This document shows positions 24,012-61,303 of a DNA stretch of 64,000 bases, piece after piece. The position numbers and the translations under genes were made by a program. The stretch's first letter is position 1. Every line of letters starts with the position of its first letter. The notes beneath the pieces were generated by a model, which saw only the letters and a program-made list of their open reading frames with translations, had not been told where the DNA came from and made no database searches. The stretch comes from Pseudo-nitzschia pungens. Its lineage: Eukaryota > Bacillariophyta > Bacillariophyceae > Bacillariales > Bacillariaceae. The DNA lies in NCBI GenBank assembly GCA_037355855.1, contig CM074761.1, positions 310,001 through 374,000 on the forward strand, written 5' to 3'.

Positions 24012-25408
24012 CGCTAACAGTACGTACTGGTACTGCGATGGTGAATTGCGTTGGAAGAGAGTTGTGCCGTAGTTCGGTAGAGTACCGGTACGCTATTGAA
24101 TACTGGAAGGAAGAGAGATGATGATCGAGAAAGGTGTTGAGTCTGGTTAGTGAAGCAAGTTTGCGACAGAGAGCGCAAGGTTACTGGTTAATCTTACTGC
24201 ACATCGTGATGGAACGGGACAGATACGGCACTACGGTACGAGATCTGTAATCTGTACGGTATGTAAGGTAATCATTCCGATGTGATAGGATTTTTTGTTC
24301 CGAAAACAATGCCGAGATTTTTTTTTTGGCGCGCTTTTGACTCAAAGACTAAGGTTACCGCATGATACGTAATCTTACCGTGATGGATACCAGGTACGAG
24401 TTCTTATACTTACGAGTGCGTACTTGTACTACTAGTAGTACCGCACCCTGAATCTTACTTCGCGCCAAAAATTATTTCCCATCTTTTGTTCTTGCGGCGT
24501 GTCGAGTTGAGGTGTACGAGTGCACGTAAGGTTAAGGTTTAGTCTGAATGAATCTCAATCAAAATGCATCAACAATCATCGTCAGTGAAAAAGGTCGAAT
24601 GAATCGCGACCGACACTACAGTCTTACCGTACCGGTACCAGCAGCATTACCGGTACGACGCATTCAATACCGTCAGTACTACTACTACTAGTGCTACTAC
24701 TACTATTAGTAGTAAGTATTGGAAGCACCCTCGAGATGATGCTGATTCATTCAAAATGCTTGGTCGTCCATCGAAACACAGATACGATCATAGAATTATC
24801 CAATCGCTCTAGAGCCATTGGATGTTCTACATAAAAAGAAATACGAAGTAGCAGTAACATTCAATTAGGGTTGTAAAATTCCTGATGACATTTCGAATAT
24901 GGCAGAGAATAGATTTTCATCGTGTTGTGTCGTTGGTCTCCTGTGTTATGGATGATAGATAGTCAACTTGAGAACCTAAGATCCATTATCGAGCCGGTAA
25001 ATGAATGAAGCGGTTCGGATGGGGGTTGGTGGAGCAGCTGCTGCCAGGAGCTGCGTCCAGAGGAAGCAAACTTCCGACACCAACTACCATCGTACGAAGT
25101 AGTAGATTGGGTTGGTGTGTGTGTTGGGGGGGGTTGCAAAAAGTGAGAAGGGGGGGAGCACAGTTCGAGGCGGTGAGTGAAATGCCAAGACCATGCGCGC
25201 AGTGGTGTTGCAAGCAACAGAGCACCGCAGTGTGCAAAGAATAGTTTAACAAGAAGGGGCAATGCCCCCAATAAATTGTTAAATTTATTAGAACAGTTAC
25301 TACACAAGATCAAAGCCAAGAGGCGAAGAGAGATAGGACACGAACACGTGCGAGAGCGTTGCGGCGATCCGAGAGGTACACCCCAATGATCTTCGAGAAG
25401 TCCTCTGT
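24012..25408. other. Intergenic, microsatellite-bearing promoter side of the PDZ-like gene
   Basis: No gene supported. The (CGTAT)n-type pentanucleotide at about 23942-23967 lies in the leader of the minus-strand gene. The rest is AT-rich with GTAAGGTTA, TACGAAGTA and TACTAG motifs. Both strands at 25000-25390 have short open frames without recognisable content. Confidence 0.35.
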
Positions 25409-29240: not shown

Positions 29241-31154
29241 ATGCGTTTTGAGACTACTTCCATTGCTTTCCTTGCAGCATGTGCCTCCGCAAGCGACGAT
29301 GCTCCGACAGGATCTTCAAACCACCCACCGTTGGCTTCCAAGAGATATAGCAACCCCATGTCCCTCTCCAAGATGTACTCCAGCGAAGCAACCGAGTTGG
29401 CTTGGAATCCTGTCAAACCTCTTTTGAATAACGTTCCTGTGACTTCGACACTTGAGGTCGATGGAGATGCCAACGAGATGGATACTATTGGTACTCCCGA
29501 CCTTGGTATTTTGGAGACAATGTTTTTCAAAAAGAGTGAAACGGAGGGAGAATCAAGTAGCCACCCCAAAGGAACCAGAAGGCTTGGGGACCATCTCGAC
29601 GAACCTGGTGCAGCAACCATCGATTGTGAATCGTATTGTGCGCAGCATTCACGTCCCGTCATTGAAGTTTCGGGCGAAGAATTTGCAGCTGTTGTATATT
29701 CGTGCCTTATTCTTGAAGGAGTTTGCCCATATGGTGATATTCCTTTGAACTGCTGGAATACTTCAACCGTCACGGATATGAATGACGCATTCTATTTTGG
29801 CGCGCGCGGAGAGTTCAATGAGCCATTGAATTGCTGGGATGTTTCTCAAGTTACTGACATGAGTCTCATGTTTCATTATCAATCTGCCTTCAACCAGCCC
29901 ATCAACGAGTGGGACGTTTCTCAAGTTGATAACATGAATGCCATGTTCTATCAGGCATCTGCCTTTAACCAGCCGATCAACGAGTGGAATGTTTCTCGAG
30001 TTTATGAAATGAGTTTCTTGTTTGGTTATGCATTTGCCTTCAACCAGCCTATCAACGAGTGGAATGTTTCTCAAGTTGAATACATGAATGCTATGTTTGG
30101 TGATGCATCTATCTTCAACCAGCCGATCAACGAGTGGGATGTTTCTCGAGTTCAAGACATGTCTATGATGTTTTATAAGGCATCTGCCTTCAACCAGCCG
30201 CTCAACGAGTGGGATGTTTCTCGAGTTTATGACATGCATGCCATTTTTGCTGAAGCATCTGCCTTCAACCAGCCGATCAACGAGTGGGATGTTTCTCGAG
30301 TTTTTGACATCATTTATATGTTTCATAAGGCATCTTCCTTCAACCAACCCATCAACGACTGAGATTTTCCTCAAGTTTACGACATGACATCCACGTTTTA
30401 TGAGGCATCTGCCTTCAACCAACCCATCAACGAGTGGGATGTTTCTCAAGTTGCTTACATGGATCTCATGTTTTATAAGGCGTCTGCCTTCAACCAGCCG
30501 CTCAACGAGTGGGATGTTTCTCGAGTTGCTTTCACGGGTCTTATCTTCTCTAAGGCATCTGCCTTCAACCAGCCGCTCAACGAGTGGGATGTTTCTGAAG
30601 TCTATGACATGTATTTCATGTTTCATGAGGCATCTTCCTTCAACCAACCCATCAACGGGTGGAATGTTTCTCGAGTTGATCGCATGAAAAAGATGTTTTT
30701 TAAGGCACGCGCTTTCAATCAATGCTTGGCTCCATGGGAAACCTTGGTTTCTGATCGAGAAGTAGACATGAAAAAGATGTTTAAAAGATCTGGCTGTGAA
30801 TCAACCTCAAGTCCTGATGGTGTATGGTGCAATAGTGATTGCACTTGTGTCGATGATGGTTCATTTCGCTTGAATTGCAAAATGAATCAAGATTGCAACT
30901 GGGTTGCAAGAAATCCAGGGAAACGTTGTGGCAGAAAGGACAAAGCAACACAGAAATTGGTCGGAGACATCTGCCCAATGGCCTGTAATATGGGCTGCTT
31001 GTGCCAAAATTCCAATGAGTCGTTCGAATCTGACGGTGATACGATGGAGTGTGAGGACGTGAAGAAAAAGCAATGCAAACAAGACGCTACCAGCAAAGTG
31101 TTCCAGGGAAGCATTGTTGCGGATCTGTGCCCCAAGAAGTGTGGCGTTTGTTGA
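29241..31154 (+). pseudogene. BspA-like (DUF285) repeat protein with internal stop
   Basis: Predicted secreted surface protein made of 25-residue BspA/DUF285 repeats. The N-terminus is a signal peptide (MRFETTSIAFLAACASAS). A Cys-containing cap (DCESYCAQHSRPVIEVSG) lies at about residue 129. About a dozen repeats of the type FNQPINEWDVSQV-x-x-M follow, then a Cys-rich tail of two modules ending LCPKKCGVC. The frame is continuous for 637 codons except for one TGA at 30360-30362, where every other repeat has the conserved Trp (TGG) of the NEW motif. That one substitution gives either a truncated 373-residue protein or a recent null allele. Flanking repeats are intact, so decay is recent or the base is an error. 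Confidence 0.8.
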
Positions 31155-38081: not shown

Positions 38082-38254
38082 CCAAACTTACGGCCAATAT
38101 CAATTGGACATGTAAAAATTATTGTAGATTCTTGTAATTTATATCGATTTTAATTCTCCTTTACACCACCAACCCGAACCGACCAACGACCTAGTACAAG
38201 TAGGGTATATGGTATGCTGCTACACCGATCGATTGCAGCAGCTCACGAAAGAAT

Positions 38255-39390
38255 GGATCATTGCGTCGTTCTTTCTCTGCATTCCCGAAAGACCGGGATC
38301 ACCGTGCCATTGTTTCTCTGAATTCCCAAAAGACCGGAATCATTGTGTACTTTGGTTCCTTGCAGTTGCTCACGAAAGCCAGGAATCATCGTGCCAGTGT
38401 TTCTCTGTATTCCCGCCCGAAAGACAGGGATCATCGTTTCTTTGTTTCTCTGGATTTCCGACAGACAGGGATCATCGTGTCATTGTTTCTCTTCATTTAC
38501 GGAAGACCGGGATCGTCATGTATTTGTTTCCGAGGACTCCCGAAAGACTTGGATCAACGCGACAGTTATCATAGTGTGTTTGATTGTATGCACTCCCGAA
38601 AGACCGGGATCACCGTGTATTTGATTGATTGTATGCACTCCCAAAAGACAGGGATCATTGTGTATTTTTGACATTCTTGTTGTCTCTTGGCATCCCTGAA
38701 AGACCGGGATCACAGTGTATTTGTTTCTCTGCATTCCCGAAAGACCGGGATCATCGTGTATTTGTGTACCGGCGCTCATGAAAGACTGGGATCATCATCG
38801 TGTAATTGTTTCTCTGCATTCCCAAAAGACCAGGATCATCGTGTTGTTGTCTCTCGGCATTCCCGAAAGACCGGGATCATCATGTACTATTTGTGTACCC
38901 TGTCGGCGCTCACCAAAGACCGGGATCATCATGTATTTGGTTCCCTGCACTCACAAAAGACCGGGATCATCATGCATTTGGTTCCCTGCATTCCCGAAAG
39001 ACCGGGATCATCATATATTTGTTTACAGACACTCACGAAAGACTAGGAGCATGATGTACTATTTGTGTACCGGTTTTCACGAAAGAGTTTCTCTGCATTC
39101 CCGAAAGACGGGGATCATCATGTATTTGGTTCCCTGCCGGCGCCCAAAAAAGACCGGGAGCACCGTGTTGTTGTCTCTTGGCATTCCTGAAAGACCGGGA
39201 TCATTGTGTACTATTTGTGTACTGGCACTCGCGAAAGACCAGGATCATCATGCATTTGGTTCCCTGCATTCCCGAAAGACCGGGATCATCATGTAGTTGT
39301 TTCTTTGCATTCCCGAAAGACCAGGAGCATCATGCATTTGGTTCCCTGCATTCCCGAAAGACCGGGATCATCATGTTGTTTGGAGGGCTA
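38255..39390 (+). repeat. Minisatellite, 40-60 bp unit
   Basis: About 20 or more tandem, diverged units, each with CCCGAAAGACCGGGATCATC followed by GTGTATTTG or a variant and TTTCTCTGCATT. Spacing varies between units. Isolated units follow at 39640-39740 and near 40160. All three plus-strand frames stay largely open and give repetitive peptides (IPERPGSS, SRKTGII), which I read as a by-product of the repeat. An inverted, diverged set is at 58855-59570. Confidence 0.85.
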
Positions 39391-39600
39391 GTCCTATTTT
39401 TAGTAACCTTGGTATTCCTCTTCCAGCAAGTGGTAATGTCTCATGTCTCTAGTCCCGGTCATTCTTATTCCCTCATGTCTCAAGTCCCGGTCACTCTCAT
39501 TCCCAGTCCCAATCCATATTCAATAATCTTAGGCTCATTATTTCATTCAATAGTCTTACGAAGCATATCATACGTGCATATCTGGTATCACGTCCAAACA
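39391..39600 (+). repeat. Dispersed repeat, copy 1 (pair at 50551-50740)
   Basis: It shares GTCCTAT-TTAGTAACC, CATGTCTCTAGTCCCGGTCA, TTCAATAGTCTTACGAAGCA and CACGTCCAAACA in the same order with 50551-50740, with indels. It is inserted within the minisatellite. No coding content. Confidence 0.7.
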
Positions 39601-39758
39601 CATGTACTACTACCTACTATTATTTGTGTACCCTGTCGGCACTCACGAAAGACCGGGATGATCATGTAATTGGTTCCCTGCACTCCTGAATGACCAGGAT
39701 CATCATGTACTTGCCTCTATGCACTCCTGGAAGCCCGGGATCATCATGTAACAATTGT

Positions 39759-41757: not shown

Positions 41758-44700
41758 ATGAGATTCTTCCCATCATTCCTCGTGTTCCTCTTGATTTCCT
41801 GGCTTGCCCAGGCACAGAAAAAGGTTGATCTTCCCAACGAAATTGATCCGAATCTTTTGCTTGATTTTCCTCTTGTTTCTCCGGCTCACAATGAGATTCA
41901 TCAAGACTCTTTGCTTGGTCACCTTGATCCCCAGGAGAATGATTATCAGCTTTCTCAGAATCCCATGAAGTCCAATCCAGTTCGTTCCCTTTTAGTGGTA
42001 GAAAATGATTGTGCTCTCGAGTGTTCAAGTTACGGACGTCCTGTGATCCAAGTTTCGGGTCCTGACTTTCGGAGTCTTATTTCCGATTGCATTGCAACCT
42101 CAAACTGCCCAGGCAGCAATGTTCCTATGAACTGTTGGGATACTTCGGCTGTAACAGACATGTACAGAGCATTTTATCACCAGTCTTCCTTCAATGAGCC
42201 CCTGTATTGCTGGGACACATCAAGTGTTACAAATATGTTTGACACCTTTGCTAATGCTCGGGCTTTCAACCAACCCATTGGATCATGGAACACAGGAAAC
42301 GTCACAGATATGCCATACATGTTCCGCACTGCTACTGCATTCAATCAACCCATTGGATCATGGAACACAGGAAAGGTCACAAATATGCAGGCTATGTTCC
42401 ACACTGCTACTGCATTCAACCAACCCATTGGATCATGGAATACAGGACTGGTCACAGATATGTCATGGATGTTTGAAAAGGCTTCTGCTTTCATCCAGCC
42501 CATTGGATCATGGAACACAGGAAAGGTCACAACTATGCATGCTATGTTTTACTCTAACTTGGCATTCAACCAACCCATTGGATCATGGAACACAGGAAAC
42601 GTCACAGATATGTCATACATGTTCCACACTGCTACTGCATTCAACCAACCCATTGGATCATGGAACACAGGAAATGTGGCAAATATGAATGACGTGTTCC
42701 GCAGTGCTACTGCATTCAACCAACCCATTGGATCATGGAACACAGGAAAGGTCACAAATATGCAGGCTATGTTCCACACTGCTACTGCATTCAACCAACC
42801 CATTGGATCATGGAATACAGGACTGGTCACAGATATGTCATGGATGTTTGAAAAGGCTTCTGCTTTCATCCAGCCCATTGGATCATGGAACACAGGAAAG
42901 GTCACAACTATGCATGCTATGTTTTACTCTAACTTGGCATTCAACCAACCCATTGGATCATGGAACACAGGAAACGTCACAGATATGTCATACATGTTCC
43001 ACACTGCTACTGCATTCAACCAACCCATTGGATCATGGAATACAGGACTGGTCACAGATATGTCACACATGTTCAACACTGCTACTGCATTCAACCAACC
43101 CATTGGTTCCTGGGATACATCAAGTGTGACAAGTATGAATAGTATGTTTTACCAGGCTTCTGCTTTCAACCAATGCCTGGGCTCGTGGCCATCTAACGTG
43201 CTTTCTCATGTCACAGTTACAGACATGTTATTGGGCACTGCATGTCCTGTTCCTGGTACACCATCAGTGAGCGACGAAACATGGTGTCAGGACTCAACTG
43301 ATGCATGCATTAATTGTGCTACCGAGTGTTCAAGTTATGTACGTCCTGTGATCGATGTTTCGGGTTCTGACTTGCAGAGCCTTATTTCTAATTGCATTTC
43401 AAGCACAAACTGCCCATACAGCAATGTTCCTATGAACTGTTGGAATACTTCAGCCGTAACAGACATGTACCGAGCATTTTATTCCAAGTCTGCCTTCAAT
43501 GAGCCCCTGTATTGCTGGGATACATCAAGTGTGACAAGTATGAAACATATGTTTATACAAGCTTCTGCTTTCAACCAACCCATTGGATCATGGAACACAG
43601 GAAAGGTCACATCTATGAATGCTATGTTTTTTTTATCTGGGGCATTCAACCAACCTATTGGGTCATGGAACACAGGACTGGTCACAGATATGTCATTAAT
43701 ATTTGACAAGAATTATCCTTTCAACCAACCCATTGGTTCCTGGGATACATCAAATGTGACAAATATGCGTGCTATGTTTGTAGAATCTGCTTTCAACCAA
43801 CCCATTGGATCATGGAACACAGGAAATGTGGCAAATATGCATGACGTGTTCCGCAGTGCTACTGCATTCAACCAACCCATTGGATCATGGAACACAGGAA
43901 AGGTCACAAATATGTTTGACATGTTTCACACTGCTACTGCATTCAACCAACCCATTGGATCATGGAACACAGGAAAGGTCACAAGTATGCATCAGATGTT
44001 CCGCACTGCTACTGCATTCAACCAACCCATTGGTTCCTGGGATACATCAAGTGTGACAAGTATGAATAGTATGTTTTACCAGGCTTCTGCTTTCAACCAA
44101 TGCCTGGGCTCGTGGCCATCTAACGTGCTTTCTCATGTCACAGTTACAGACATGTTATTGGGCACTGCATGTCCTGTTCCGGGTACACCATCACTATCTG
44201 CTGACACATGGTGTCAGGACTCAAATGATTTATGTTTTGATCCCAGCATGGCACCCAGCAACGTGCCAAGTGTGTTCCCAAGCATGAAGCCCAGTATGAA
44301 GCCCAGTAATACTCCAAGTGGTATCCCCAGTGGCATTCCCAGTTATGTGCCAAGCACAATCCCAAGCAATGTTCCCAGCTTCAAGCCAAGCATGGTCCCC
44401 AGCATGATCCCAAGCTACTATTGTGATGCAATCTGTGGCAATTCACGTCCAAAGATAACAACCAGTGGTGCTTCATTTCGGGATCAATTGAAGCAATGTG
44501 TGAATGATGTTATTTGCCCAGAAAATAAACCAGTGAAGTGCTGGGATGTCTCAGGTGTAGCAAACATGGGTTATGCATTTTATGGATTAAACACCTTCAA
44601 TGAACCTTTGGACTGTTGGGATGTATCGGGAACAATTGGCATGAGCATGATGTTTAGTGGTGCATCTGCTTTCAACCAGTCCATCAATGAATGGAATGTT

Positions 44701-46215: not shown

Positions 46216-47898
46216 TCAGAGCAGTAGAATCATGAATGGTGTCCAGTGTCGTCTCACGAGACGTTCCATTTCCTGTATCATTTCTCCTACGATCTCCTTC
46301 GGCATAGTTTCGGTGCATTCGAGCAGCACGCAGTGCTGACAACCGATCCAACATGGCTTGCTTTTGTGAATCGCGTTGTTGTCGTTTCGATTTTGTGACG
46401 ACAAGGATGAGGAGGGAGATGTCAATGTGGACAGAGACGTACTGAGATGGAACGCGGGTCTTATCCTTGACAGGATTGAGGTGACGCAACGCGACGCCAT
46501 TGCATGCTCTTCTCCGTTATTCTGTACTACTGGTGTTGTAGCTCGATGGTGAGGGGAACTGTGGAAACGACGTTCCCAATGCTTGAATCCGTCCTGCTGA
46601 TCCGGTAGCAATCCATATGATGCCTGTTCGTTCCCGCTCCAAAATCCATTAGGTCTCCTGGAGTGATCGAGCCCTCTTGAATGATTACTTCCACTGTTCA
46701 CACCAGCGTTGGGTTCTACTCCTTTTGAGTGATGGATGACCTCCTCTTCGTCATCTGGACCTCCTTTTGGGTGATGGATGGCCTCCTGTTCATCATCTGA
46801 AAGGCCTACGTAAATGTTGCCTCTCAGAGGTGACATAGGATTGGTCTTACCAAAAAATCCTGGTGGGTGTTTTTTCTGTTGTTGTTGATGTTGCTGTTGA
46901 AAGTTCTGGAGATTTCCCCGGTTGGCACGACGGTTGAGGAGCGTGCGTTGTCGGCTCAAGAGCATTTTATGGCGTGATTCCATAATAGCAGGATAGTTTT
47001 CGTGGAATGGAGAAGGCATGGGAGGCACGGACTCCGGCTTTGAGCCCGGTGGCGTTGCTTGCAATTCCATTGGATCCCTTGCATTGCTCACATTGTTTGG
47101 ACTCTGTCGTTGTTCGCGTGATGGATCGTGATCCGTTTCCATTGAGGGAGGGCGGAGTGGGGTTGCAGACGCAGGCTGCTCATGCTGTTGCTGGATGGGC
47201 CAGTGCCGAGGTTTGTCTTTGACGCTCAATGTAGGGGGTGCTTGTGAACCAGGTGATTGAAGGATTGACATATCTACTACCGCTCGTGGTTTGTCCGTTG
47301 ATCGGCTGGTGGTCTCGGAAGTGTCATGCACCTGTCCAATACCATCCTCGGATCTATTCAACAGGTTGAGTTGTTGAATTTCCTCATAAAAACGGTCTGC
47401 GGATCGGCTGGATCTAGATCTCTGTATATCTCGATACGACCGTTCCGAGGATCTCCCGGATCGTTCCAGAGCCCCGAATGCCTGACGAGAAGAGTTGATT
47501 GAATGGCTCGACCGATTTGAAGAGTCCATTGACACGAGAGGACTGCTGCCAGATCGGGAAGATCTCGAGGACGATTCGAATACTTGTTCGCTGGGGCTTT
47601 CTATCGATGGAATAAAGGGACCCAACGGAGTCCGAGCGGTTCCAATTGATCGAGGGGATTTGTACGGCGAGTCCACGCCATCCTCGGAGGTGCTCATCGA
47701 TCGATTGGATCTGTTTGGGGGGCTCTGAAAGATCGTGTGGATTTTGTACGAGGCTTTGAGTTTTGAGTTTCTCAATCGTTTAATCACACTACCATCACCG
47801 CCGTCATTGAGATCCGCTCCCAATAGACTCATGTCATTATTTCTGGGCTGATGGCCCTTTAGAACAACAACTGAATTGTACAAGTTCGTCGCCGCCAT
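46216..47898 (-). CDS. Ser-rich disordered protein of unknown function
   Basis: I recognise no family. The 560-residue frame is rich in Ser, Arg, Pro and Gln with clusters such as SSRSSRSGSS and RSSRSADRFYEE. It has a polyGln stretch near residue 335 and a tandem 16-residue duplication (AIHHPKGGPDDEEEV, then VIHHSKG) near 370-390. It is probably mostly unstructured. No signal peptide is seen. Upstream of the first Met (47898) the frame stays open as YEIWEKLEMAATNLYNS, and a gag-like remnant lies directly upstream on the same strand, so the N-terminus could derive from it. Near the C-terminus another frame (46489 down to 46178) has better-looking content (QAMLDRLSALRAARMHR), so a last intron or frameshift is possible. 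Confidence 0.5.
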   Translation of the reverse strand: MAATNLYNSVVVLKGHQPRNNDMSLLGADLNDGGDGSVIKRLRNSKLKASYKIHTIFQSPPNRSNRSMSTSEDGVDSPYKSPRSIGTARTPLGPFIPSIESPSEQVFESSSRSSRSGSSPLVSMDSSNRSSHSINSSRQAFGALERSGRSSERSYRDIQRSRSSRSADRFYEEIQQLNLLNRSEDGIGQVHDTSETTSRSTDKPRAVVDMSILQSPGSQAPPTLSVKDKPRHWPIQQQHEQPASATPLRPPSMETDHDPSREQRQSPNNVSNARDPMELQATPPGSKPESVPPMPSPFHENYPAIMESRHKMLLSRQRTLLNRRANRGNLQNFQQQHQQQQKKHPPGFFGKTNPMSPLRGNIYVGLSDDEQEAIHHPKGGPDDEEEVIHHSKGVEPNAGVNSGSNHSRGLDHSRRPNGFWSGNEQASYGLLPDQQDGFKHWERRFHSSPHHRATTPVVQNNGEEHAMASRCVTSILSRIRPAFHLSTSLSTLTSPSSSLSSQNRNDNNAIHKSKPCWIGCQHCVLLECTETMPKEIVGEMIQEMERLVRRHWTPFMILLL

Positions 47899-47934
47899 CT
47901 CCAGTTTCTCCCAAATCTCATATATGGATGTATC

Positions 47935-48557
47935 TGCGTCTGTAGATCATTTAACTTGGTCGCCAATCAGATCACAAGGTACTGCGGAACTCCACTGAGT
48001 AGTGTCGCAAATAACTCATCTTCTGTTGGTTTGATTGTCTTGTACTGGTATTTTTGCATCAGTCCAAACAATCACTCAAAAATTTTCTTCGGAGGATCCA
48101 ATGCCCCCATCGTAACTGCCTTTCGATCCCTATCCAGTTGAATCCTGTCAGCTGTATCAGTCCGTCTGTACAACTTGAACAACTCCTCAAAGATTTGATG
48201 GACTCGTCCTCTTGGCCACTTGCGGACTGTTACCGCATTTTCTTCTGCTGTTGCTCCCCTATCCATCTTGGACTTCTCAATTATGGCATACCCCGTATTG
48301 TTGTTGTGGAATGCTGTATATAAATCATTCAGAGCTTTGGTGTGCTTTCTCAACGCCCTCCGTTGCTCCTTCGGCATAGAGGCATATGCTGCTGCTTCAC
48401 CATCGCTTGGTAGATCTGGATGTGGCTCCGAACTCACCAACTCTTGGTACTTGCTCCTGCTTGCATGAGCTAGGAATTGTCTGAACCATCCTTCAAAATC
48501 CACGTCTCCTGTGTTCGTCAACTTGGGAATATACCTCAGCCCCATGCTGCTCGTCAC
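47935..48557 (-). pseudogene. Retrotransposon gag-like remnant
   Basis: The minus-strand frame from MTSSMGLRYIPKL resembles the gag/UBN2-like N-terminal region of diatom Copia-type elements: FEGWFRQFLAHASRSKYQEL, then KMDRGATAEENAV, GRVHQIFEELFKLY and DRIQLDRDRKAV. After a first TGA the same frame continues with matching content (FGLMQKYQYKTIKPTEDELF, LLSGVPQYLVI), then hits a second TGA. No protease, integrase, reverse transcriptase or LTRs are seen nearby, so this is an isolated, inactivated fragment. The family call is by resemblance to remembered gag patterns and is moderate. Confidence 0.55.
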
Positions 48558-48686
48558 TTCGCTCCGTCAACTCTTTTGACTTCTCATGTAATATTGCTTG
48601 CTGTCCGATAACACCACGGTGCAGCTGCTTTTCGTCGATCGTCCGATAACGACACGCGACGTCGACTTCTTTCCTTCTCCCTTTTT
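48558..48686. other. Spacer upstream of gag remnant
   Basis: Contains repeats such as TGTCCGATAACA and CGTCCGATAACGACACG that relate to the array that follows. Confidence 0.3.
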
Positions 48687-49483
48687 CAATCGTATCCGTT
48701 TCCGCCGATAGATCCTTTCTGTTATTCAATCGTATTCGTCTCCGCGAATAGATCCTTGTGCTTCTTGTTTTCTTTGCGATTGTTCGTTGAATCAAATCGC
48801 CTGCAAGACCAAATTCCATTACGTTGGTCCAATATCTTTCTTTTGTTGTTTCGTTTCTTCTTCTTTCGCGATTGTTCGTCGTTGAATCAAATCGCCTGCA
48901 AGACCAAATTCTTTTCGTTGGTCCAAATGTACTTTCTATGTCGTCCGACAACAACACGAGACGACGCATTCTTCTTATATTCTTCCGATCGTATTTGACT
49001 CCGCAAATAGTACCGAAGTACTTGGGGCTCCCCAAATAGATCCAATCGTATTCGAACTCCGCGAATAGATCCCTGTGACTGATCAGGTCACCTGCAAGAC
49101 CGGCTTCTTGTTGTTGTTGCTCCCTTGGTCCACTCAATCGTATCCACACTTTGGATAGATCCAATCGTATCCGCGCTTTTGCTTTCGGATAGATCAAAAT
49201 CAACAATCGTATTCGTCTCAGCGAATAGATCCTTGTTATTCTTCAATCGTATTCGGCTCTTTCTTCTCCGAATAGATCCTTGAGTGGTTTTGCTGTCAAT
49301 GTACAAGCAGTACTGGGAACCCTGTAGAAAACTATTTCAACCACGACGCACGAAGGCAGTGTGGGACTGGACTGTGTCCAGTGATGAATCGTGTCACGGC
49401 TACAATTTAAAATAATTCTGCAATCGTGTTCTGTATCAACAAATGGATCCCCTGCAATCGTATCCGCGTTTTCGGATAGAGCC
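48687..49483. repeat. Array of short hairpins with covarying stems
   Basis: Nine units, most in the frame CAATCGTA-stem-loop-stem-TAGATCC, start at about 48687, 48727, 48987, 49043, 49135, 49162, 49204, 49244 and 49455. Stem pairs differ but stay complementary: TATTCG/CGAATA (48727, 49043, 49204, 49244), TATTTG/CAAATA (48987), TATCCA/TGGATA (49135), TATCCG/CGGATA (49162, 49455). The 48687 unit has one mismatch. A further unit at 49020-49042 uses TTGGGG/CCCCAA before ATAGATCC. Interspersed are three copies of a second hairpin block, GCCTGCAAGACCAAATTC with TTGGTCC downstream (48800, 48893, 49094; the last diverged). Function unknown; no coding support. Confidence 0.8.
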
Positions 49484-49573
49484 ATCAACACGTTCTCGCC
49501 TCGTGTACCTTACCGTAATTACTGATCTCTCGTCTTTCGAGCGCTCCTCTAACCGAGAAATTCTTCGAAGAAT

Positions 49574-50301
49574 GAGTGATTCCCGAAATACTAATAACAT
49601 ATTTTTAAGTGACATAAAACATGTTAATTTGGATTCCCGAAAAGATAAATCAAATGCCCTTCCACATAAAAAGCTGTAGTGCCGTCTGTACGACTACGAC
49701 TTGACATAAACATAAATCGGAATCGCGCGCCAAAAAAGAATCTTTAGATGCGTGGGTTGGGAGTAGAGAGAGAGTTTTTATTTTCTCAACTAAGATTCCA
49801 GATTCCAAAATAGGCCTTGTCCGTTGAAACTAATCTAGGCTTGTCCGTTGGGCGCGCAATTTTTCTATTATTAGTACTACGTATTGTATTATTTCGGGAA
49901 TCCAAATATGTGTGCACATAAACTATGATTTCATATTACATTATTCGTGACGTGGCACACACAGATCTATGTGCTCACACATAGAAAAATAAGAATCTAT
50001 TAACGGATTTCTCAGAATCTGGAGGTCACATATTTGCCTCCTCCAGATTTTAAGCACCAATTCATATTTTCAAGGAATCTTGAAAACAATAATTGCGCGC
50101 TAAAAATTGTCGATACACGCGCATTCAGGGAATAAAGAGAGCATTTTTTGTTTTTGGAAACAAGATTCCAAATTCTAAAATAGGCCTTCTGCACGCCTGT
50201 CTGTCATCCGTTTTTAATGCATGTCCGTTGGGTGCGCCAAAAACAATGAGGACATTGAATTTAGGTTATGATATTACACATATTAGTTTCGGGAATCACT
50301 C
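49574..50301. mobile_element. Harbinger-related MITE with nested second element
   Basis: 728-bp non-coding element with terminal inverted repeats GAGTGATTCCCGAAA and its complement, flanked by AAT on both sides (3-bp target duplication). The TIRs match those of the 14431-16423 transposon apart from one base in the first 14 (CCCG in place of CCTG). Internal GTCCGTTGGGTGCGCC-type motifs also match that element. Inside it, 49627-49907 has its own 16-bp inverted repeats (ATTTGGATTCCCGAAA), suggesting a nested insertion of a cousin. Confidence 0.75.
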
Positions 50302-50550
50302 AATGTTTGGAGGGCTCTGAAAGATCGTGTTGTTAATTCTGAATCCAAAGTAACCTTACGGTAGATCAATACTTCGTAATTACTTGTAAAACCTTACCGG
50401 TAACCTTACTGAGACGATTATTCCGACCACCGGATTCTCCATTCTCATCTCTTGTTTCCTGTTCTTATATCCACACAAATATCTTCTGTATACGTGTCTA
50501 CTTCAGACCGTATATTTATACTTATTGCACTGTAGACTCGGTACTTAGAA
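50302..50550. other. Intergenic
   Basis: Right after the MITE, a short segment (about 50305-50331, TTTGGAGGGCTCTGAAAGAT) matches part of the Ser-rich gene at about 47718-47744, and may be a captured fragment. No gene. Confidence 0.4.
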
Positions 50551-50740
50551 GTCCTATATTTAGTAACCTTTGTATTCTTCTTCAAGTAATTGGTAATGCC
50601 TCATGTCTCTAGTCCCGGTCATTCATATTCTCACTTCCGCTCCATATTCTATAGTCTTACAAGTAAGGTTACCATGTTCAATAGTCTTACGAAGCATATC
50701 ATACGTGCGTATATCACATCTGAATATCACGTCCAAACAG
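50551..50740 (+). repeat. Dispersed repeat, copy 2 (pair at 39391-39600)
   Basis: Same ordered blocks as copy 1, with an extra GTAAGGTTACC insertion around 50663. Confidence 0.7.
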
Positions 50741-60196: not shown

Positions 60197-61303
60197 TCAT
60201 TCTGGTCCGCTTTTTGGGAAAAAAATGCTCGTTCTCTGTTCGACGCAATACTTTGCCAGCTGAACTATGGATTCTTTTGACCCAAACTCAATGGCCTCTG
60301 GATTCCGCAGCAAATCCTCGAGGACAATTTCGACATCTCCTTTTAAGGATTCATTTGCGAATTCCAATGCCCGTCCATTTTTAGTCACTGCGGCTAAGAC
60401 CACGTCCTTGTCGTTTTGCAACTCTTTGGATGCAAACCGCAAGGCCCGTCCATACTTATTCACTGCAGCTAAGACCACCTCTCTGTCGTTTCGCAACTCT
60501 TTGGATGCAAACCACAAGGCCCATCCATCATCGTTCACTGCAGCTACAACTACCTCTCTGTCGTTTCGCAACTCTTCGGATGCATATTGCAAGGCCCATA
60601 CATTATTATTCACTGCAGCTACAACCACCTCTCTGTCGTTTCGCAACTCTTCGGATGCATATTCCAAGGCCTCTCCATTATTATTCACTGCAGCTACAAC
60701 CACCTCTCTGTCGTTTCGCAACTCTTCGGATGCATATTCCAAGGCCCACCCATGATTATTCACTGCAGCTAAGACCACCTCTCTGTCGTTTCGCAACTCT
60801 TCGGATGCATATTCCAAGGCATCTAAATTGGATGCATATTCCAAGGCCCACCCATGATTATTCACTGCAGCTAAGACCACCTCTCTGTCGTTTCGCAACT
60901 CTTCGGATGCAAATTTTAAGGCCAATCCATCCTTATTCACTGCAGCTAAGACCACGTCTTTCTCGTTTCGCAGTTTTTTGGATGCATATTCCAAGGCCCG
61001 TCCATTTTCATTCACTGCGGCTAAGACAACCTCTTTGTCGTTTCGCAACTCTTCGGATGCAAAACACAGGACCATTCCATTTTTATTCACTGCAGCTAAG
61101 ACCACGTCTTTGTCGTTTGTTACGGTGTTCCCAAAATATCTTAGGAAGCTGCCAATTCGTGCTACTGCAGCCATGGCAACATCTCTATCCTCCAGCATTG
61201 GAGAGGGAGGGTCACGCTGCTTTAGCTCGTCCAACGCGTCTTTGATGACATAACCTTCATCATCCACGCAATGATCATACGCATGCTGTCGAATGAATTC
61301 CAA
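60197..61303 (-). CDS. DUF4116 repeat protein
   Basis: Protein made of about 12 tandem 25-residue DUF4116 repeats, of the type NDREVVLAAVNNHGWALEYASEELR. The molecular role of these repeats is unknown. They occur in large numbers in some algae and protists. The C-terminus (VQLAKYCVEQRTSIFFPKSGPE) is unique. One repeat (60818-60847) carries an extra 10 residues from a partial duplication (ASNLDALEYAS). The frame has no upstream ATG: it opens just after a stop near 61333, and the first in-frame Met lies at 61198. A plausible 3' splice site (TTGCTGTCAG) sits at 61310-61319, so an upstream first exon is likely. Confidence 0.8.
   Translation of the reverse strand: MEFIRQHAYDHCVDDEGYVIKDALDELKQRDPPSPMLEDRDVAMAAVARIGSFLRYFGNTVTNDKDVVLAAVNKNGMVLCFASEELRNDKEVVLAAVNENGRALEYASKKLRNEKDVVLAAVNKDGLALKFASEELRNDREVVLAAVNNHGWALEYASNLDALEYASEELRNDREVVLAAVNNHGWALEYASEELRNDREVVVAAVNNNGEALEYASEELRNDREVVVAAVNNNVWALQYASEELRNDREVVVAAVNDDGWALWFASKELRNDREVVLAAVNKYGRALRFASKELQNDKDVVLAAVTKNGRALEFANESLKGDVEIVLEDLLRNPEAIEFGSKESIVQLAKYCVEQRTSIFFPKSGPE

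Follow-up and report, generated by a model that had tools for sequence, protein, structure and literature searches.

A repeated, covarying hairpin in the 5' leader of a Ty1/copia-type retrotransposon family of the diatom Pseudo-nitzschia pungens

The hairpin units and their pairing

What are the short inverted repeats that crowd into some 800 bp of a chromosome of Pseudo-nitzschia pungens, and why should the two arms of each change together? The DNA considered here, hereafter the window, is a stretch of 64,000 nucleotides (C4:310001-374000) of the 66.9-Mb assembly, in 28 contigs, that we searched for further copies; loci of interest are cited by their L numbers. An earlier note, made from the letters of the window, had described nine units with co-varying arms, ascribed tentatively either to a retroelement leader or to an unrelated structured transcript. 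We find nine units and a weak tenth, all on the minus strand within 48687-49482: the exact sequence CAATCGTAT occurs eight times and CGATCGTAT once, with starts spanning 48687-49455, and the degenerate tenth unit, at 49421, reads CAATCGTGT. On the minus strand such a unit, which we call class A, has the form GAUCUAU-NNN-loop-NNN-AUA-C-GAUUG. Its helix comprises 10 pairs and one bulged C, the flanks being paired too, with G.U, A-U, U-A, C-G, U-A, A-U and U-A besides three variable pairs, and its loops are rich in purines (69% A+G). The array described earlier is real; to be corrected are its functional strand, which is the minus strand, and the dimensions of its unit, from a stem of 6 bp to one of 10 bp with a bulged C. 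The joint changes TATTCG/CGAATA, TATTTG/CAAATA, TATCCA/TGGATA and TATCCG/CGGATA are likewise present in the window, with a single stem mismatch in the unit at 48687. The TTGGGG/CCCCAA hairpin, which had been set apart as a separate unit, belongs to the same class as the others, because it stands alone in L026 and L029 as GATCTAT-TTGGGGAGYCCCAA-GTACGATTG; in the window it is fused with its neighbour (48986-49042).

A first pattern of the unit has 70 matches in the genome (32 on the plus and 38 on the minus strand) and a looser pattern 99, the reversed control patterns giving none for either. From 60 candidate units outside the window we picked 46 for an alignment, A1, in which the sequence of the flanks, CAATCG/TAGATCC, varies little and the bulged C is mostly kept; the covariance model R1 was built from A1, with the window sequence excluded. 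On the 64-kb window R1 returns nine minus-strand matches at E<=2.5e-5, every one of them within the array, and otherwise the tenth unit alone. Following the minus strand, they lie at 49455-49482 (E=2.5e-5), 49421-49449 (the degenerate unit, E=0.9), 49244-49278 (E=1.3e-9), 49204-49231 (E=1.1e-9), 49162-49195 (E=1.4e-7), 49135-49161 (E=9.3e-7), 49043-49071 (E=1.2e-8), 48986-49042 (the two fused units, E=1.6e-5), 48727-48754 (E=1.1e-9) and 48687-48714 (the unit with the mismatch, E=4e-6). An Rfam scan of the window gives no match to the array above the gathering score, its sole match being a U2 spliceosomal RNA gene at 25151-25336 on the minus strand (RF00004, 115 bits), and ARAGORN, under bacterial settings, finds no tRNA in the window.

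Does the pairing persist across the genome while the letters change? Units with no more than one mismatch in the flanks number 161, the window included, of which 155 remain after the removal of six over-extended ones, and 88 of these are distinct. In their three variable pairs, 246 of 264 cells hold standard pairs (93.2%), compared with a mean of 73.3% and a maximum of 79.5% in shuffled controls, none of 10,000 of which reaches the observed value; all such counts pool related copies, and the fractions of shuffles are not probabilities. Sliding one arm by 1-3 bases leaves 16-44% of the cells of the 88 units paired. When only the 24 distinct arm pairs are considered, 80.6% are paired versus 65.2% after shuffling (maximum 77.8%). 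The alignment A1, set against shuffles, has 98.0% of 459 cells paired, with 24-42% in slid controls; two-sided changes fill 33 of its cells versus 9.3 in shuffles (0 of 500), and they affect five pairs, a number reached in 2 of 500 shuffles. The arms of the genomic copies evidently change together, as expected of maintained pairing, and the predicted RNA structure of the class A leader is well supported by these comparisons. Tandem duplication of one arm, the origin that would have undone this idea, fails to account for the conserved bulge and the varied loops, and chance or a simple tandem repeat is rejected by the shuffles, the slid controls and the reversed patterns.

The leader that contains the class A units is modular and larger than the array; in the window it begins at the post-LTR palindrome (49572) and continues as far as gag (48545). 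Interspersed between the class A units are double hairpins arranged around a (U/C)UGCAG linker, here called module B, with 73 instances, 48 of them distinct. Among their second hairpins eight arm types can be told apart, and every one of them is complementary to the arm downstream of it (8 of 8, scores of 4.5-5 out of 5), a score of 4.5 being reached by 10.7% of cross comparisons. The first hairpin, H1, changes from GACCAA/TTGGTC to GATCAA/TTGATC in L039 and to GACCGA/TCGGTC in L037, and is mismatched as GACCAA/TCGGTC in L027, L035, L040 and L047; its pairing amounts to 80.0% versus 75.5% after shuffling, with 149 of 5000 shuffles at or above the observed value, in a test weakened by a badly chosen anchor and partly mis-anchored rows. 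One module, B1, occurs once per leader and is recognised in 31 of 35 sources (it is absent from L028, L036, L041 and L042). In the window it occupies 49075-49132 on the minus strand, with a GACC..GGTC hairpin, a TTGCAG linker and the hairpin GTGAC-CTGATCA-GTCAC, the loop of which contains the palindrome TGATCA. The B1 stems are complementary in all 31 cases, in five versions: GUGGC/GCCAC (n=13), ACAGC/GCUGU (n=14, two with a loop one base shorter), GCAGC/GCUGC (n=2), GUGAC/GUCAC (n=1, the window) and GUGAU/AUCAC (n=1). Their palindromic loop, (A)CUGAUCA, has UGAUCA in 29 of the 31 and UGAUCC in L033 and L046, and a self-complementary loop carried on a stem is one mark of a dimer initiation hairpin. 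A genome search with one B1 version, allowing up to three mismatches, finds 22 identical copies, five with exactly two changes, located at paired positions and possibly stemming from one event, and none with a single change. In all ten whole leaders that were folded the B1 stem has a mean pair probability of 0.66-1.0.

Two copies of another version, B2, lie further along the minus strand of the window: one at 48868-48925, with a GACCAA/TTGGTC hairpin, a TTGCAG linker and a GCGATT/AATCGC hairpin, marked by direct repeats D4-D6, and the second at 48776-48831, recognised from direct repeats and comparison of the B modules. The last autonomous module changes stepwise, with ACUCG/CGAGU in L039, ACUUG/CGAGU in L048 and ACUUG/CAAGU in L059. 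A putative class D hairpin, GTCGTC/GACGAC, lies at 48940-48965 on the minus strand (direct repeats D15/D16; GTCGTC/GGCGAC in L026), with a loop resembling that of its two sisters, also putative, which occupy 48600-48666 on the same strand and have the arms GTCGACGTC/GACGATCGAC and GCTG/CAGC, judged from sequence and direct repeats.

The retrotransposons that carry the array

To which kind of DNA do these leaders belong? In twenty 10-kb stretches examined around matches, most have direct repeats of 360-440 bp with TG..CA ends just 5' of the hairpins, that is, LTRs, and the genomic copies of the motif lie mainly in leaders of LTR elements, whether autonomous, gag-only or, in two cases, deletion derivatives without ORFs. 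Among the exceptions are L001-L003 and L013, with two hairpins inside a minisatellite; around L036 no LTR of the family is matched. Fourteen LTR pairs are listed, with 5-bp target duplications such as ACCCG, CCGAT, AGAGC, ACTCG and ACTAT, and the pairs with target duplications bracket the leader plus gag. Eleven of the 14 are free of substitutions (two of the 11 with gap columns), the remainder having one (L024), two (L029) and 15 (L035), and most of these insertions are on this ground young.

Judged from its alignments, the array in the window is the 5' leader of a decayed gag-only Ty1/copia-type retrotransposon spanning approximately 50739-47712 on the minus strand. Its 5' LTR, of about 436 nt (50304-50739), aligns with positions 1-325 of the L039 LTR at 84% over 50739-50410 and ends with CCAAACA at 50304-50310. 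A later insertion of 728 bp (49574-50301), with 15-bp inverted ends GAGTGATTCCCGAAA (inverted repeat I1) and a 3-bp duplication AAT, sits at the junction of LTR and leader, outside the leader proper. The palindrome TTCTTCGAAGAA, at 49561-49572 on the minus strand, has the position of a primer-binding site, directly after the LTR in intact relatives. The decayed gag (47788-48545, minus strand) matches residues 1-207 of L030 gag at 83% with two TGA codons, and then residues 199-253 at 73% with one; it is followed by a 52-nt remnant of the 3' LTR end (47712-47763, minus strand), 94% identical to the LTR end of L037. The rest of the 3' LTR beyond these 52 nt is not matched in the window copy, nor was pol found between its gag and the LTR remnant, nor its own target duplication. 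It is an old, decayed relative of the gag-only elements. Of the two settings considered earlier, then, the leader of a retroelement with its gag remnant on the same strand is the one that holds, the array lying between 5' LTR and gag as in other LTR retrotransposons of the family, and the same position disposes of the unrelated structured transcript.

An ORF at 48493-49206, considered as an N-terminal extension of Gag, differs in frame from gag and is taken as a chance occurrence. On the minus strand, an open frame of 560 aa (46216-47898) runs from the C-terminal part of gag through the LTR remnant into a serine-rich protein, for which continuation no Pfam match is found; this frame may possibly be a retroelement-host fusion or arise by chance. 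Elsewhere in the window there are 75-bp tandem repeats (29835-30707, 42265-44100 and 60361-61118), with a period fitting protein repeats of 25 residues, and, at 38246-39751, a tandem array of degenerate 41-bp units sharing a GAAAGACCGGGATCATC core.

Six gag-only copies (L022, L026, L030, L032, L035 and L039) contain a gag of 365-400 aa as their sole forward ORF that starts with ATG and exceeds 105 aa, and have the layout of TR-GAG elements, namely an LTR pair and a gag ORF without pol. In L024 gag lies inside an internal part of 7 kb, and it is broken or shortened in L025, L029 and L038. The autonomous L033 has the same kind of array before an intact gag-pol ORF of 1786 aa, with RVT_2 at 1260-1491 (E=1.7e-31) and SH3_retrovirus at 919-986, ahead of RVT_2, in the order of Ty1/copia; no integrase-core Pfam match is listed for this ORF. 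The RVT_2 domain, an integrase region before the RT and the TG..CA LTRs with 5-bp duplications are all features of Ty1/copia elements (Pseudoviridae). The first 700 residues of the element have one strong protein relative among those found, from Psemu1, which we take to be Pseudo-nitzschia multiseries (39% identity, 83% query cover, E=1e-113). Gag has one CX2CX4HX4C and one CX2CX3HX4C zinc knuckle in L033 and in all seven gag-only copies examined, the L030 gag scoring 21.3 bits with the zinc-knuckle Pfam, under the cut-off of 27 bits. Over 28 pairs among eight pol-less copies dN/dS of gag is 0.13-0.38, pointing to purifying selection on the gag of pol-less copies; with respect to L033, dS is saturated.

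Two derivatives have no ORF of 70 aa: L034, with an internal part of 649 nt and seven R1 matches, and L037, with 1427 nt and six matches, both with target duplications and LTRs without substitution. The idea that they represent a mobilised family is rejected, for their deletion junctions are spanned by 1 of 25 and 1 of 16 matches, namely the elements themselves; because each junction is unique in the genome search, the deletions may date from the final round of reverse transcription or may postdate insertion. Such copies are consistent with the leader acting in cis, which they do not prove. Separate observations concern L001, L002, L003 and L013, where a collapsed 23-nt TGTTTGGACGTGACCTCCAAACA, the post-LTR palindrome and two class A hairpins are enclosed in a GC-rich minisatellite; hairpin pairs of this type recur at eight sites, four of which were read. 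On C7, two arrays at 3636288 (in L043) and 3640242 are 3954 bp apart on one strand, and gag matches and three 3'-end matches repeat the same spacing; these are perhaps tandem elements that share an LTR.

How widely is the array distributed among related elements? Twelve RT copies are 95-100% identical to L033, and the array is present in all nine of their leaders that were read (L033, L046, L048-L052, L059 and one in L031). It is absent from six leaders, of 94-120 nt, read in a clade with 54-57% RT identity (L053-L058, some ten further rows of which were left out), and from L060, the single locus at 68%, with a leader of about 40 nt. The tally is thus nine of nine leaders in one pol clade versus none of seven in relatives, and, since the six array-less relatives of the 54-57% clade carry TTCTTCGAAGAA at the same place, one clade seems to have gained the array. 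In L033 (2509-2520) the post-LTR palindrome is TACTTCGAAGTA, still palindromic, and in L060 (approximately 1208-1221 of the reverse complement) it is presumably ATACTTGCAAGTAT, self-complementary too. The letters of this palindrome differ between lineages and its self-complementarity is kept, which is odd for a primer site complementary to a tRNA; a role in dimerisation or self-priming is possible. A search for tRNA primers with the CTTCGAAG pattern stays at control level (15 versus 12), and a looser pattern (38 versus 6 in the control) picks out no primer.

The leader RNA and its possible function

At which level would the hairpins act? The earlier note had placed RNA and DNA cruciforms side by side. 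Compared with dinucleotide shuffles, six leaders (L022, L026, L029, L033, L034 and L039) fold with z-scores of -2.4 to -4.4 on the gag strand versus -1.2 to -1.8 on the other; either strand of the gag of L026 and L039 scores between -0.6 and 0.1, and the leader in the window gives -1.17 sense and -1.40 antisense. Within whole-leader folds of ten leaders, 46 of 80 class A helices exceed a mean pair probability of 0.5. Mismatches in nine helix pairs of the 88 distinct units comprise 36 G.U versus 17 A.C on the gag strand, for which a one-sided p=0.006 assumes an independence that does not hold, the count by distinct position and type being 7 versus 7. Moreover, 11 leaders have five AUG versus 138 expected from dinucleotide shuffles, a count in which the leaders are not independent since modules recur; AUG is the most depleted of the 64 triplets (0.04, with UAG next at 0.31), while six gag-only copies together have 227 versus 277 expected in their 3' noncoding parts. 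These indirect lines of evidence, namely the excess of G.U, the stronger sense folding and the depletion of AUG, favour RNA of the gag strand (minus in the window) over a DNA cruciform as the form in which the array acts. From the purging of AUG over 390-980 nt we infer that ribosomes probably scan the leader, an internal entry site or a shunt being less likely for the same reason.

This raises a further question: what would an RNA gain from so many copies of one hairpin? Our preferred explanation, to which we assign a probability of about 0.58, is that the array is the structured 5' leader of a Ty1/copia-type family working as gag-strand RNA, in which it constitutes a cis-acting region for encapsidation and dimerisation read by the zinc-knuckle Gag. 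It is base-paired and lies between the 5' LTR and gag, as does a packaging signal of the retroviral type. Ribosomes scanning the AUG-poor leader would translate gag; its product, via the two CCHC-type zinc knuckles, would bind many class A hairpins and select the RNA for the particle; the UGAUCA loop of the single B1 would start dimerisation by pairing with its counterpart in another RNA molecule, both the binding and the dimerisation being what we infer; and pol-less elements, relying as they do on enzymes provided in trans, would keep and enlarge the region. Several points count against this explanation: the deletions in the ORF-less copies possibly followed insertion, 46 of 80 helices is a modest yield, the window leader folds weakly, R1 finds just two or three hairpins in five of the nine autonomous leaders (L048-L052), H1 of module B barely exceeds its shuffles, and the zinc-knuckle score of the L030 gag stays under the Pfam cut-off. 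Moreover, the seven array-less relatives evidently manage without the array.

The strongest alternative, unlikely in our judgement, is that the structures serve the translation of gag by slowing or redirecting ribosomes or by binding a host factor, with no part in packaging. It would suit a leader that is purged of AUG, and so probably scanned, and an array that is present in the gag-bearing copies examined; yet the two ORF-less derivatives keep the hairpins, though perhaps simply for want of time to lose them, six relatives precede gag with 94-120 nt devoid of the array, and the purging of AUG fits plain scanning, not internal entry or a shunt. Less plausible again are palindromes acting as DNA, either as repeated protein-binding sites of an enhancer or insulator, of which the Drosophila copia leader and the gypsy insulator are examples, or as cruciforms the arms of which agree through template-switch repair. 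The conserved letters of the flanks CAATCG/TAGATCC would fit such sites, and the repeated palindromic motifs of Sireviruses are read as transcriptional (PMC2829016). Nevertheless, the bulged C breaks the palindromy and is mostly kept, the letters of the upper stem vary while pairing stays, the gag strand tolerates G.U above A.C (an excess that might also come from a mutational bias), and six leaders fold better in sense than in antisense. We consider it quite improbable that the hairpins, numerous and imperfect as they are, feed or occupy the silencing machinery of the host as a decoy or source of small RNAs, for a 10-bp stem is short as a substrate of Dicer-type enzymes. Finally, a functionless by-product of chance or tandem duplication deserves hardly any credence, even if the units are repeated, often in tandem, and array length varies between copies, since no shuffle among 10,000 or among 500 matches the observed pairing, several distinct stem sequences pair and the reversed patterns have no match.

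Returning to the encapsidation reading, the size of the leader invites an evolutionary extension of it. Six to nine class A hairpins are found per leader where R1 works well, with one to four B modules. R1 finds six in L033, L046 and L059 and two or three in L048-L052 (four to six with looser matching), and among the gag-bearing pol-less copies eight in L022, seven in L025, nine in L026, seven in L029, eight in L030, nine in L032 and nine in L039. There is one B module in L033, L048 and L059 versus three or four in seven gag-bearing pol-less copies, and leader length is 386-430 nt in L033, L048-L051 and L059 versus 766-980 nt in eight pol-less copies. It is conceivable, although we would sooner bet against it, that gag-only parasites have expanded a packaging array shared with their helper and so win Gag from it in competition, and that the array, having arisen once in a diatom Ty1/copia clade, records an arms race over encapsidation; the comparison sets 766-980 nt, seven to nine class A hairpins and three or four B modules (seven copies counted) against 386-430 nt, six hairpins and one B module in the helpers that are modelled well.

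Comparison with known systems and significance

Among known systems, the psi and DIS regions of retroviruses are similar in having several hairpins before gag, a palindromic loop on a stem and a zinc-knuckle Gag. Retroviral psi consists of few distinct hairpins, and differs in not being made of many copies of one diverging class; no sequence relation is claimed. The yeast element Ty1 offers another likeness, for its region for packaging, dimerisation and priming (TIPIRT) is also a structured 5' end of a Ty1/copia-type RNA. In Ty1, kissing-loop hairpins at the 5' end have been proposed as the starting point of dimerisation and packaging (PMC5454406); with the proteins provided in trans, an RNA needs no more than 380 nt from its 5' end and 357 nt from its 3' end (PMC4974528), and the layout of L034 is similar. 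Ty1 has one pseudoknot domain, whereas the diatom leader has repeated, diverging hairpins, is poor in AUG and goes with a zinc-knuckle Gag, the Gag of Ty1 being without zinc knuckles (PMC4974528). Sireviruses, also Ty1/copia elements, likewise carry palindromes that recur in their non-coding DNA, but these lie before the TATA box of the 3' LTR and, in two elements, next to the ENV gene as well; most have a CGG-CCG core in common, and the comparison drawn for them is with transcriptional activators (PMC2829016). The words 'hairpin', 'stem-loop', 'covaria' and 'packaging' have no occurrence in the main text of that paper. Diatom CoDi elements are of Ty1/copia type too, and 'hairpin' does not occur in the main text on them (PMC2806351).

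The TR-GAG elements of plants share the LTR pair and gag without pol; the copies described here come from a diatom, and may differ from the plant ones in having the hairpin array and a gag under purifying selection. Structured leaders and gag-only elements were already known; against the sources accessible to us, the array of one diverging hairpin class with covarying stems, combined with a single palindromic-loop hairpin, appears new. No report of an array of this kind was found in the open-licence literature, which is weak evidence of absence.

To our knowledge, the encapsidation signals of LTR retrotransposons have been studied mainly in yeast. Here, helpers, gag-only parasites and deletion derivatives within a single genome carry many diverged copies of one hairpin, and related clades lack the array. 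Comparative work and simple RNA assays could use such material to test how a zinc-knuckle Gag recognises RNA and how helper and parasite RNAs compete.
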